The notes beneath the pieces were generated by a model. The model was given only the letters and a program-made list of their open reading frames with translations, did not search any database and had not been told where the DNA came from. The position numbers and the translations under genes are program-made. From an uncultured Myxococcales bacterium (GTDB lineage Bacteria; Myxococcota_A; UBA9042), in assembly GCA_903842345.1 (NCBI GenBank), contig CAIMLR010000024.1, positions 1 through 57,296 of the forward strand: a stretch of DNA of 57,296 nucleotides, read 5' to 3'. Positions 1-11,638 of this stretch are shown piece after piece. Each line of letters begins with the position of its first letter. Position 1 is the stretch's first letter.

Positions 1-3000
1 CGCCGAGCGTCACCGTGAAGCCGTTCATCGGCCCGCACTGGCTCTTGCCCGCGCCGCCGCCGTAGCCGTCCCCGTCGACGTCCTGGTAGTACGTCGTCAC
101 GGTCAGTCCCTCGTCCGTCTGGCCGTTGCAGTTGTTGTCCATGCCGTCGCAGATCTCGCCCGCGCCCGGGTTGATGGCCTTCTGCGCGTCGTTGCAGTCG
201 CCGTTCACCGTCACGAGGAAGCCGCCGCCCGGGCCACATTGCAAGCTGCCGACGCCCACGCCGTAGCCGTCCAAATCCGCGTCGGTGTAGTACGTGGTCG
301 TCGGCAAGCCGTCGTCGACAAGGCCGTTGCAGTTGTCGTCGACGCCGTTGCACGTCTCTGCCGCGCCGGGATTGACGCCGGACTTCGTGTCGTCGCAGTC
401 GCCGCCTGTGGCGACCTTGTGCGCGCCGTCGGGACCGCACAGGCTCACGCCGGACGCGGTCTGGCCATAGCCGTCCAGATCGTTGTCGGTGTAGTACGTG
501 GCGATCAAGCCCTCGTCGGTCTGGCCATTGCAGTTGTCATCCGTGCCGTTGCACACCTCGGCCATGCCGGGGTTGACCAGCGCGTTGCCGTCGTTGCAGT
601 CGTCCTTGGCCGTGGCGCTGAAGAGGCCGTCCGCGCCGCACAGGCATTGGGAGAGGCCGCTGACGCCGTAGCTGTCGCTGTCCTGGTCGACGTAGTACAG
701 GACGCAACCGCTGGTATTCTTGGGATCCTTGACGCCGTCGCAGTCGTCGTCCTTGCCGTTGCAGATCTCCTTGGCGCCGGGGTGGACCGATGCGTCCGCG
801 TCATTGCAGTCCGGCAGCGCGTCAGAGCTGGCGTAGCCCGCGATCCCGACGCACAGGCACTTGGGCGCCGCGCTGTACGTGCCGTAGCCGTCGCCGTCCT
901 TGTCCACGTACCACAGCGTGCAGCCGTCGGCGTTGACCGGGTCCGTCGCGCCGTCGCAGTCGTTGTCCACGCCGTCGCAGATCTCGGTCGCCTTGGGATT
1001 GACGGCCTTGTCGCTGTCATTGCAGTCGCCGGTCTTGGTCGCGGTGTATTCGCCGCCGGGGGCGCACAGGCACGATGAATCGCCCAACAGGCCAAAGCCG
1101 TCGGCGTCGTGGTCGCGCCAGAAGGTCGTGCAACCGCTGGCGCCGGCTTCATCGATGCCGTTGACGCAGTTGTTGTCCTTGCTGTCGCACACTTCCTTGG
1201 CCGCCGGGTTGATCGCCGCGTCGCCGTCGTTGCAGTCGCCCAGCTTGGCGACCTTGAACGTCGCATTGCCCTTGCACAAGCACGCGCTCTTGCTCGAGTC
1301 GCCCCACCCGTCGCCGTCGCCGTCCACGTAGAAGGCCAGGCAGCCGCTGGCGTCCGCTTCGTCGGTCTGGCCGTCGCAGTCGTTGTCCAAGCCGTCGCAG
1401 ATTTCCGTCGCGCCGGGATGCGCCGCGCTCGTGTCGTCGTTGCAGTCGCCGCCCACGGACGTCGTGTTGAACGGCGTCTTCTGGCACAGGCACAAGCCAG
1501 TGGCCGGATTGCCAAACGTGTCGCCGTCGCCATCGACGTAGAACGTCGTGCAGCCGACCGCGCCCATTTCGTCCGCGGTGCCGTTGCAGTTGTCGTCCAC
1601 GCCGTTGCAGGTCTCGGTCGCGGCGGGATTGATCGCCAACGCGCCGTCATTGCAGTCGCCGGCTTTGAGCGCGGTGTGGGACGCGTCGGGCGCGCACAGG
1701 CACGTCGGCGTCGCGGTGCCAAAGCCGTCGCTGTCCAGATCGACGTAGAAGTTGGTGCAGCCCGTCGCGCCGGCTTCGTCCGTCAGGCCGTTGCAGTCGT
1801 CGTCTTTCTGGTTGCCGCACGCTTCCTTGGCGCCGGGATTGACGTTGGGGTCACTGTCCGCGCAGTCGCCGGTCTTGACCGCGGCGTAGATGCCCTTGGC
1901 GGCGCACTGGCAAACGGGGTCGCCCGAGCCAAAACCGTCGCTGTCGTTGTCGGCGTAGAACGGCACGCAGCCGCTGACGTTGGGACCGCTGTCGGTCAAG
2001 CCGTCGCAGTCGTCGTCGATGAAGTTGCCGCACTGTTCCTGCATGCCGGGGTTGATGGCGGCGTTGGTGTCGTCGCAGTCCTTCTTGCCCTTCTTGCAGA
2101 CCAGCGGATCGCCGACGACGGCCATGTTGGCGTCGCACCAGCCGTCGCCGTCATCGTCGCAGCCTTCGTCGGTCTTGCCGTCGCAGTTGTTGTCGATGCC
2201 GTCGCAGACTTCCGCGGCGCTGCCGTTCACCGCCTTGTTGGCGTCGTCGCAGTCCGTGGCGGTCGTGGCGGTGTAGAGCCCGCTCGGCGTGCACATGCAC
2301 TGGGAGGCGGAGCCCATCTTGCCGTCCTTGTCGCCGTCGCCGTCGGACCAGACCTGCGTGCAGCCCTTGGCGCCGTTCTCGTCGGTCGCGCCGTTGCAGT
2401 CGTCGTCCACGCCGTTGCCGCAGCTCTCCGGCGCGGGCGTCGCGGCGGGACATGCGCTCAAGCCCGCGAGCGTGCACTTGCGCAAGCCCGCGCACGTACC
2501 GGCGGCGTTGGCGATTTTGCACGTCGTCTGCGCGCCGTCGGCAACGGCGGCTGGCGAACACGCGCACTCGCCTTTGGTCCGCACGCACTGCTTGCCGGCG
2601 CCCTTCTCGCCCTGCGCGTCCAGGCACTTGAAGTCGCCGGGGCAATCGCTGTCGATCTGGCACGCGCCGCCGCAGAAGCTCCCCGTCGCCTGGTACTGCA
2701 CGCACAGCGAGTCCTTGCCCACCTTGCCGCACTCGGCGTCGGTCTGGCACGGCCGGCAAATCGCGTTCCACTTGGGCAAGCAGACTTGCACGCTGTCGCC
2801 GCCGGTGGTCTGGAACGCCTCGCACTTGAAGCCGGTGGGGCAGCAGGCGTTGCAGGAGCTTGTGCAAATCTTGCCGGCTGGGCCATCGACGCACGCGCCG
2901 CTGTCGCACTCGTCCGACGTCTTGCACGTGCTGCCCGGTTCGCCCGGCAACGGCTTGGCCGGAAATTCGCAGCCGGATTGAGCAATGTCGCTGGCGTCCG

Positions 3001-10400: not shown

Positions 10401-11638
10401 GCCGCCGAGGCGTCATTGCAATCTTTCTTGCCGTTGACGCACACAGCGGGGCTGCCGATGACGACCATGTTGGCGTCGCACCAACCGTCGCCGTCGTCGT
10501 CGCAGCCGTTGTCGGTGATGCCGTCGCAGTCATCGTCCACGCCGTTGCACAATTCCTTGGCGCCCGCGTTGATGGCCTTGTTGCTGTCGTCGCAATCCGT
10601 CGCGGTGACCGCCGAATAAAGCGACGTGCCGATGCACAGGCATTTGCCGGCGCTGCCAACCGCGCCCGTGCCGTCGCTGTCGCTGTCGATAAAATACGTG
10701 ACGCAACCCTGCCCGCCTTCCTCGTCGACCGTGCCGTCGCAGTTGTCGTCGATGCCATTGCCGCATTTTTCCGGCGCGGGCGTGCTGGCGCTGCACGCGC
10801 TGAGGCCGCCCGCGAGGCACTTGCGCGTGCCGGCGCAAACGCCCACTTCATTGCTCACCGCGCACGCCGTGTCCGCGCCCGCGCTGATGGCCGCGGGGCT
10901 GCACGTGCACAGCTTGTCGGTCTTGACGCATTGCTTGGCCTTGCTGCTCTTGCCCTGGGCGTCGGCGCAGTCGTAGCCGTTGGGGCAATCCGCGCTGGCG
11001 GTGCAGGTCGCGCCGCAAAACGCGCCCGCGTCGCCATAGGCCAGGCACAGGGATCCCGCGCCAAACTGGCTGCATTCCGTGTCCGCATTGCACGGTTGGC
11101 ACAGCGCGTTGACCTTGGGGAGGCAGGCAAACTGTTGGTCGCCGCTGCCGGTGCCATAGGCGGAGCACGAGTAGCCGGTTGGGCAGCAGTCCGTGCACGC
11201 GACGGTGCAGAGCTTGCCCTCGGGGCCGTCCACGCAGAGATCGCTTTGGCAGTCCGTGTTGGTCTTGCAGGTCGCGCCCGGCTCGCCAGTCTTGGGATTG
11301 CTGGCGAATTCGCACGTCTTGACGGGGACATCGGCCGCATCGGCGTCGCCATCGGTCGCGGTGTCGCCATCGCCGATCGGCGCGGCGTCGCTCTGGGCGT
11401 CCAAGGCATCGGCCGCATCGCTCAGGTCCGAATCCCCGCTCAGCTCAGCACCGGCGCCATCGCCCAAGCCGCCGTCTTTGGCCGCGTCGCTGAGCGTGCC
11501 GTCCTTGCTGAAGCTGATGTCCAGGTCTGTCTGGCCGCCGGCGTCCGTCGTCTTGGTGCCGCCGCACCCCGCCGCGAGCAGCAGGGCCGTCATCACCGGC
11601 AAGCGCCAACCGTTCACGGCAAATTTCGACAGTTTCAC
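7472..11638 (-). CDS. Giant MopE-repeat lipoprotein (1388 aa), first of the tandem set
   Basis: The start is taken as GTG at 11638 because AGGAGG lies 4 bases upstream and the translation then begins with a clean lipoprotein signal (MKLSKF..., LLLAAGC, Cys25, then Gly-Gly). An ATG 51 bases upstream would add an unlikely leader. After an Asp/Ala/Ser linker and the cysteine-rich head shared with its two neighbours come 14 MopE-type repeats. The C-terminal domain of about 190 residues (TWNFDSGPQGFTH... to DIDDVTLVAQ) has the look of a MAM/concanavalin-like lectin fold and differs from the C-terminal domain of the downstream paralogue. The shared repeat scaffold with a swapped C-terminal domain suggests a common stalk carrying different binding heads. 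The gene is first in a probable operon and has its own promoter. Confidence 0.92.
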   Translation of the reverse strand: MKLSKFAVNGWRLPVMTALLLAAGCGGTKTTDAGGQTDLDISFSKDGTLSDAAKDGGLGDGAGAELSGDSDLSDAADALDAQSDAAPIGDGDTATDGDADAADVPVKTCEFASNPKTGEPGATCKTNTDCQSDLCVDGPEGKLCTVACTDCCPTGYSCSAYGTGSGDQQFACLPKVNALCQPCNADTECSQFGAGSLCLAYGDAGAFCGATCTASADCPNGYDCADAQGKSSKAKQCVKTDKLCTCSPAAISAGADTACAVSNEVGVCAGTRKCLAGGLSACSASTPAPEKCGNGIDDNCDGTVDEEGGQGCVTYFIDSDSDGTGAVGSAGKCLCIGTSLYSAVTATDCDDSNKAINAGAKELCNGVDDDCDGITDNGCDDDGDGWCDANMVVIGSPAVCVNGKKDCNDASAAIHPGQPEICGNGVDDDCDGVTDAGSNVTACVPFYEDNDGDGYGVGDPNCQCAATGLYTAVTPGDCDDATPSVHPNAAEVCSNGKDDNCNGVQDEPGAKGCNDYYVDLDADGYGVATPTCLCGPSGTQSALNGGDCNDDASAIHPNAVEICDGIDNNCAAGTDEENAQGCTTLFADQDLDGFGDSKKKGCVCAANLAYAVTDSTDCNDAAATAHPGATEACDGIDNDCDGLTDEADADGCQVFFVDGDGDGYGDTAQFACLCKANATFKASKLGDCADDNPAIHPGATEICDGIDNNCSGTTDENGATGCSTYFYDADKDGYGLDSASECLCAKAGLYTANVGGDCADGDSAIHPSADEICDGLDNDCDGVTDPANTNGCEFWYVDKDGDGYGTIQLASKCLCAGTTGYAKNSSDCNDNDAAINPGATEICNGKDDNCDGIKDPKNTQGCTVYYADGDSDGYGVTSLNQCACVADTLFKAVLPGDCNDGNATINPGKTEICNQVDDNCNGQTDEGLLKPFFQDLDGDGWGGSVSHIQCAADASYSSSASGDCDDSKFAVNPGATEVCNYVDDNCNGLTDEGTGIQTFFKDLDGDTFGAGVGQALCSAQGQFTVTDNSDCDDTKYAIHPGAADVCDGVDNNCNGQTDENLATALYFVDADKDAYGIGSGQLQCGPLGSATAVVGGDCDDTKPLVYPGSPELCDGLDNNCNGTTDEGFTKTTYFPDSDGDGYGTGAGVLQCAAGGGNTATQGGDCNDSNASVHPGATEVCSNSIDDNCNGQINENCCTINQTWNFDSGPQGFTHATTVSSAGDTWAQGPMGLGDTCHGNNNGCWSTGLSDYYVSCESAALQSPTIDLSSCAGSSKVLTLGFWGRYDFESGYDGAVLQVSTNGGQTWADVTTSVAYNYTLDATGCVASITINGHKAWSGSPTGLTWKYFSYTVPVGQKVTGFAFRWLVGSDSSSVGYGMDIDDVTLVAQ

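Follow-up and report, generated by a model that had tools for sequence, protein, structure and literature searches.

Architecture of the array

At the left end of a 57,296-nucleotide stretch from an uncultured Myxococcales bacterium (contig C24:1-57296 of the 5.8-Mb genome G000; hereafter, the window) lie three head-to-tail genes, all on the minus strand and named a, b and c in order of transcription. Each encodes a putative signal peptide, a Cys-rich N-terminal domain, a stalk of MopE-type repeats and a C-terminal domain, here called the tip. These genes were compared with each other and with their counterparts in four sister genomes of the same genus (G001, G002, G003 and G004), all of which are metagenome-assembled genomes (MAGs) named as uncultured Myxococcales, from samples MJ-time, Ja1, YR2 and AlinenLipids, respectively. 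The wider set searched comprised 52 genomes including G000 itself, five of them of this genus.

Gene a (7472..11638) starts at a GTG at 11638 behind an AGGAGG, and its open frame extends to an ATG at 11689. Its signal peptide (11564..11638), N-terminal domain (10754..11317), stalk (8054..10750; 13 full units and a last anchor, with nine six-Cys units followed by four four-Cys units) and tip (7475..8053) follow in that order. Gene b (3370..7446) is built likewise, with the N-terminal domain at 6577..7131, a stalk of 13 full units and a last anchor at 3886..6573, and the tip at 3373..3885. Gene c (1..3304) is cut by the contig end; it starts at ATG 3304, or at ATG 3262 with a better ribosome site, and the window holds its N-terminal domain (2411..2971) and part of its stalk (1..2407). 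An earlier note on the window, made from the sequence alone, had proposed completing this gene, and contig C22 of the same genome allowed it: the start of C22 is the reverse complement of window positions 1-98, an exact 98-bp overlap, beyond which the frame runs to L158:709 on C22. The completed gene has 13 repeat anchors and its own tip (L158:197-706), and the three proteins measure 1405 (a, counted from the upstream ATG), 1358 (b) and 1304 (c) residues.

The N-terminal domain contains 26 Cys in each of the three proteins. Ahead of it, after a hydrophobic stretch, stand motifs that resemble the familiar lipobox pattern, namely AAGC in a (with an unusual Ala at -3), LAAC in b and LTAC in c, and these pattern matches suggest lipid anchoring. 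Searches with the N-terminal domain returned relatives in all 52 genomes and in 45 places of the window's own genome (E<=1). One such place lies further along the window on the plus strand (25740-29336), where a 1198-residue frame combines a partial match to this domain with a Dicty_CTDC repeat and has no MopE repeat at E<=0.001; this frame is a diverged relative.

Positional register of the repeats

The stalk repeats belong to PF11617 (Cu-binding_MopE), with 14 stretches in a, 14 in b and 12 in the cut gene c, at scores of 489, 464 and 371 bits, respectively, against a cut-off of 27. By anchors, a and b likewise contain 14 repeats each, the number claimed in the earlier note, and the completed c contains 13. 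In all three genes units 1-9 have six Cys each and the later full units have four, and repeat lengths and Cys counts agree position by position. The odd members that the note had singled out are present, with unit 3 reading TACVPFY or SACIPFY in a and b and SGCVPFY in c, and unit 9 reading DP..GCTVYY in a and b and GCVLYY in c.

Gene c was represented in the register test by its 11 full units inside the window. Position was kept by the closest counterpart in the other gene for 10/13 units from a to b and 10/13 from b to a, for 10/11 from a to c and 9/11 from c to a, and for 11/11 from b to c and 10/11 from c to b. Seen from gene a, the units out of step are 4, 12 and 13 (against b) and 5 (against c). 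None of 2000 free permutations attained the summed same-position score in any of the six tests, and 0 or 1 of 2000 did so when permutations were restricted within the six-Cys and four-Cys repeat classes. For the same ordered pairs, the same-position match exceeded the best match within the gene in 11/13, 10/13, 10/11, 8/11, 10/11 and 11/11 units. The repeats therefore group by position across genes and not within each gene, the latter being the pattern that the note had named as contrary to its own reading. Between sister-species orthologues the register is complete, with 13/13, 13/13, 11/11, 13/13 and 13/13 same-position best matches in the five pairs tested.

The central claim of the note, three tandem paralogues with matched repeat order and differing C-terminal domains, is borne out by this register, by the Cys counts and by three distinct tips. 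Duplication of the stalk is likewise supported, although it extends beyond the trio: similar registers occur in several dispersed family members, so that the odd third and ninth repeats do not mark these three genes alone. An exclusive clade of array positions a+b+d (d being the sister-species orthologue of the window's c) was rejected by the approximately unbiased (AU) test (p 0.0105), and other paralogues fall among the array genes.

Sequence types and predicted fold of the tips

The tip of gene a matches NF038112 (stretches of M36 peptidase models; E 7.8e-13), Reelin_subrepeat-B (5e-4) and InhA-like_MAM (6e-3), all below curated cut-offs, and by these matches is MAM-like, as previously suggested. 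It has no match at E<=0.001 in the four sister genomes. The tip of gene b is of a different type, here called T1, which reaches no Pfam cut-off and has relatives only in the five genomes of this genus among the 52. The curated cut-off of Pfam MAM was reached by none of 15 tips scanned, nor was that of any carbohydrate-binding module family; one member matched MAM at E 0.014, and InhA-like_MAM was found in one of the 15, the a-tip (E 0.0059; 16.6 bits against a cut-off of 26.9). Sequence searches of the PDB with the a-tip and with T1 tips returned no relative (best E 0.27).

An AlphaFold2 model of the b-tip, computed on four sequences, has a mean predicted local distance difference test (pLDDT) score of 49 over the last two repeats and the tip, and its tip core is all beta. 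In VIA-align comparisons of this model the first places go to MAM-bearing chains (8a28, Z 11.3, root-mean-square deviation (rmsd) 3.4, 139 aligned residues), with one enzyme in third place and carbohydrate modules also among the similar structures (2xom, Z 9.8). Taken together, the MAM and carbohydrate-binding structures 8a28, 4gwm and 2xom give Z 9.8-11.3 and rmsd 3.2-3.5 over 131-139 residues, whereas their sequences are only 7-11% identical to the b-tip. With moderate confidence, the b-tip is thus predicted to be a jelly roll of the MAM/carbohydrate-module kind. The second gene had been said to end in a different beta domain; its tip is indeed distinct in sequence, but the fold class is probably common to both tips. 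The tips also have common start and end motifs.

T1 domains are found outside the array as well. A 2008-residue family member elsewhere in the genome (G000:C28:141407-144022, the gene in L106) has three T1 matches, internal as well as terminal, an architecture that suggests tips added in series.

Stalks and tips across the genus

Arrays beside the same kinase-like flanking frame comprise four genes in G004 and in G002 and two genes in G001, where the contig then ends; that of G003 is in pieces spread over several contigs. G002, G003 and G004 have an extra gene between b and d, called c in these species, that the window lacks. In a tree of N-terminal domains, positions a, b, c and d each occupy one side of a branch, position a weakly (58/39), and in a 67-row tree position a is supported at 100/100. 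Identity of N-terminal domain and stalk by position is about 60-85% across the genus, with group means of 0.63-0.80 for the stalk.

The tips at positions a and b follow a different pattern. At position a, those of G001, G003 and G004 are all T1 (70-98% identical), that of G002 is another type and that of G000 a third. At position b, T1-like tips are present in G000 and G004 (42% identical), a second kind in G001 and G003 (61%) and yet another in G002. Position clades in the tip tree are rejected by AU tests whether the long a-tip is included (a, p 5e-8; b, p 9.7e-4) or left out (a, p 6.6e-6; b, p 5.1e-11). The c-position tips of G002 and G004 group together. Judged by these trees, stalk positions are inherited faithfully and the a and b tips are exchanged, and the exchange of tips on conserved stalks proposed in the note has gained stronger support across the genus than the window alone could give.

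Among hand-picked groups, from which cut or very short tips, unpaired members and G000_C47 were dropped, tip identity was 0.42 or less in 19/27 array ortholog pairs and in 7/28 pairs of other groups; the pairs, drawn in part from shared genomes, lack independence, and the cut-off was chosen after group identities had been seen, the 99th percentile of between-group pairs over the last 200 residues being 0.413. G000_C47 was left out because reciprocal best hits place it with the d genes, its tip being 0.27 identical to that of G002_d. Low-identity tip pairs also occur in four of ten groups outside the array (e.g. C54 against C181/C161 and C187 against C16/C100), and the stalk of G001_C54 bears the tip type of G001_C16/G002_C100.

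A near-identical tract and the probable borders of exchange

Between G003 and G004 a 592-bp tract is 98.8% identical (seven mismatches; between positions 2366 and 2959 of L063), within flanks that average about 79%. It spans the a-tip and the signal-peptide start of the next gene, and stops close to the lipobox of gene b, some 80 bases into that gene. In 90-bp windows, identity is 69-88% in the last part of the stalk, rises to 98-100% in the tip and thereafter lies at 58-93%, with a mean of about 78%. In a scan of 1061 overlapping 300-bp windows, drawn from alignment pieces of at least 600 bases and at least 78% identity, the tract supplied the eight highest values. It looks like a recent cassette exchange. 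What may be an older swap is visible between G000_a and G004_a, where an identity of 0.82 gives way to about 0.5 within 60 bp of the border between repeat and tip, then climbs back to 0.84 close to where the next gene begins. As the genes in the window are spaced by tens of bases, orphan tip cassettes are unlikely to lie between them.

A proposed model of tip exchange

We consider it likely, with some reserve, that the array encodes long outer-surface lipoproteins in which faithfully kept stalks carry cassette-swapped jelly-roll tips, giving diversified recognition or adhesion. In such a protein an N-terminal lipid anchor would be followed by an acidic linker, the 26-Cys domain and an extended stalk of 13-14 Cys-rich MopE-type repeats with DxDxDG motifs. 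The repeats would probably bind calcium and the cysteines may pair in disulfides, in keeping in part with general knowledge of such repeats. The C-terminal jelly-roll tip would bind something outside the cell, plausibly prey, kin, surfaces or glycans. Homologous recombination would replace tips as cassettes, one crossover falling in the last repeat and the other in the start of the following gene, where the signal peptide is conserved. The incoming tips would derive from elsewhere in the array, from further members of the family or from different species.

Several points weigh against this model. The searched set holds only five genomes of the genus, and the support consists of sequences and models. 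A model of four stalk repeats is poor (mean pLDDT 56) and has no fold match, and the b-tip model was computed from four sequences, its core scoring mostly 60-87 in 10-residue blocks and 44 in one of them. A single clade of d tips including the window's c-tip is not rejected (AU p 0.39), although the c-tip shares only 29-34% identity with the d tips, which are 55-71% identical to one another. The donor search for the a-tip and c-tip gave weak relatives and no close donor, so that these two may have diverged in situ. Six of the ten groups outside the array have no low-identity tip pair (e.g. C7, C30a and C30b), and tip exchange is therefore not universal. At the borders, G000_b against G002_b drops at the same point with no clear downstream recovery, and a window in the conserved sheath gene downstream of the array is also 98.7% identical over 300 bp between G003 and G004, tying for ninth in the scan.

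Neighbouring apt, cap and sheath genes

Upstream of the array lies a minus-strand gene (11770..12291) resembling adenine phosphoribosyltransferase, which we take to be apt. Beyond the window's left end, 45 bp past the stop of gene c and on the same strand, C22 carries a Pvc16_N cap gene (L158:755-1342; E 8e-21) followed by a phage-type tail-sheath gene (L158:1553-2737; E 1.2e-21). The junction of stalk gene and Pvc16 recurs in all four same-genus genomes that show this end of the array, the gaps being 45, 67, 50 and 50 bp; G001 has no Pvc16 match. The cap gene occurs in 38 of the 52 genomes, and loci were retrieved for 30, their neighbourhoods being read to 1.5 kb (upstream sequence is shorter than this in three loci besides the window's own) and further only in the same-genus arrays and six family loci. 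By tblastn, 4/4 genus, 4/13 family and 0/13 class loci have a stalk frame with repeats that ends no more than 700 bp before the cap gene. Of the six family loci read further, four have a stalk gene and two lack one, and apt stands upstream in every case, directly so in both stalk-less loci (tblastn). As the order is found with and without stalk genes, apt-cap-sheath is probably the older arrangement, into which the stalk genes would have entered.

Of the four other-genus stalk genes at this site, three end in a short Cys-rich tip that is Somatomedin-B-like (E 6e-4 to 5e-3, below cut-off; the C-terminal 80 residues of the genes in L205, L206 and L207 of G012, G013 and G015, between apt and Pvc16), and the site thus again bears an apparently different tip. 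Sheath proteins from the six family loci are 90-92% identical. Downstream of the array, the stretch with the sheath gene (L058:367-2038, against L062 and L059) is 87% identical between G003 and G004 and 90-91% to G002, higher than the array itself, with G003-G004 300-bp windows up to 98.7%. A second sheath lies beside a tube gene at G000:C5:36954-38611, and two further tube genes are found at G000:C26:13846-14235 and 64979-65374. Parts of contractile systems are thus scattered over several places in the genome, with tube genes on contigs other than the array's. Elsewhere in the window, a plus-strand frame of 3042 residues (33201-42329) contains ten Big_2 Ig-like stretches and is possibly another large surface protein.

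Alternative explanations

This setting admits a broader account, in which a stalk gene inserted between apt and the cap and sheath genes was multiplied to three or four copies and now takes up tips from the rest of the genome and from neighbouring species, by recombination between the last repeat and the signal peptide of the gene that follows; co-transcribed with the sheath, the stalks would select cells for injection. We regard it as unlikely. A simpler alternative makes the array an integral part of the adjacent contractile machinery, its products serving as contact fibres. The cap gene that stands on the same strand, 45-67 bp past the final stalk gene, in 4/4 same-genus genomes, and the sheath gene that follows it in the window's genome, favour such a role, which is nevertheless improbable given the rarity of stalk frames before the cap beyond the genus, the apt gene directly upstream in both stalk-less loci tested, the tube genes on other contigs, and the location of most family members elsewhere in the genome (where no search for injection genes beside them was made).

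It is equally improbable that the tips only diverge fast in place, under diversifying selection and without exchange, so that members of one old fold have come to seem unrelated. Their common start and end motifs, their probably single fold, the lack of a close donor for the a-tip and c-tip, and the standing of the d clade with the c-tip are all consistent with it. For positions a and b, however, it is contradicted by the AU tests, and it does not readily explain T1 tips at position a in three species with T1-like tips at b in two, G004 having both, nor the 98.8% tract inside flanks of about 79%, nor the match of C54 and C16 tips across stalk groups.

The tract itself could be a chimera of metagenome assembly, uninformative on exchange, and the facts that both G003 and G004 are MAGs and that the tract ends in 44 and 42 identical bases lend this some credit. 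The two bins, however, carry different sample names, and the seven mismatches speak against one copied sequence. If the bins come from the lake dataset of PMC8121793, as we infer from a text that contains Alinen though not the codes Lipids or YR2, the assemblies were made per sample or mainly lake-wise. The tree incongruence moreover holds without the tract, and a chimera is improbable.

Least probable of all, and very unlikely, is that these proteins are copper scavengers resembling MopE, with the repeats as a metal store, which the Pfam name of the 14, 14 and 12 stretches would invite but which would not account for swapped tips. In MopE/CorA (PDB 2vov) the short Pfam motif occurs once, against 13-14 times in the stalks of the array, and the remainder of the MopE chain, which bears the copper site, is unmatched: phmmer with protein a hits only residues 13-50 of the 336-residue 2vov, and the stalk profile matches, at the level of sequence, only residues 13-45. 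The sole PDB match is this one motif of 33-38 residues, which falls almost wholly within the 46 N-terminal residues that are invisible in the MopE crystal (PMC3423442). The Cu(I) site uses two His and a kynurenine, and MopE is stabilised by calcium (PMC3423442, PMC3912023). Low-affinity Cu(II) sites may involve the first 24 residues of MopE (PMC3423442), so that the motif may still bind copper weakly. Copper storage was set aside on the limited match to 2vov and on these accounts of the crystal and the copper site.

Relation to known systems

Polymorphic surface receptors with a variable domain are represented in myxobacteria by TraA, the kin-recognition receptor of Myxococcus, which differs in being encoded at a single locus, the variable part in the array being the C-terminal tip. 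TraA is defined by a PA14-like variable domain and MYXO-CTERM. Neither was found in the window's three proteins, c being taken as cut (Pfam E<=10, NCBIfam E<=1). The nearest precedent appears to be the chimeric mosaic adhesive trimer (MAT) repertoire of Bdellovibrio, a predatory bacterium whose surface fibres bear varied C-terminal beta tips; two members whose N-termini are 75% identical are stated to differ by an exchange of the C-terminus, and one MAT type is shown to bind surface glycans (PMC10769870). By analogy the two systems would work alike and be built differently. The MAT fibres are intertwined trimers with beta-prism and beta-helix parts (PMC10769870), whereas the array has a shaft of MopE-type Cys/Asp repeats, a lipobox-like motif, a tandem arrangement and a tract of recent exchange. 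The principle is therefore already known, and what is added here is the protein architecture and the visible cassette borders. Open-licence literature on the repeat family, on domain exchange in Myxococcota surface lipoproteins and on contractile systems yielded no title on such an array.

Biological significance

The array is a real, modular, tip-exchanging array of putative lipoproteins, and it offers a concrete and testable case of receptor-tip shuffling in uncultured myxobacteria, in which the borders of exchange are visible, some tip types are traceable to other stalks, and the species form a series of natural experiments with the same stalk bearing a different tip in each. A further suggestion is that, among proteins annotated as copper-binding MopE, some form the stalks of surface proteins and are not copper proteins. 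The pattern is that expected of a changeable recognition system, and recognition would be its likely role; should prey or kin be what the tips bind, the range of hosts or partners may become readable from metagenomes.

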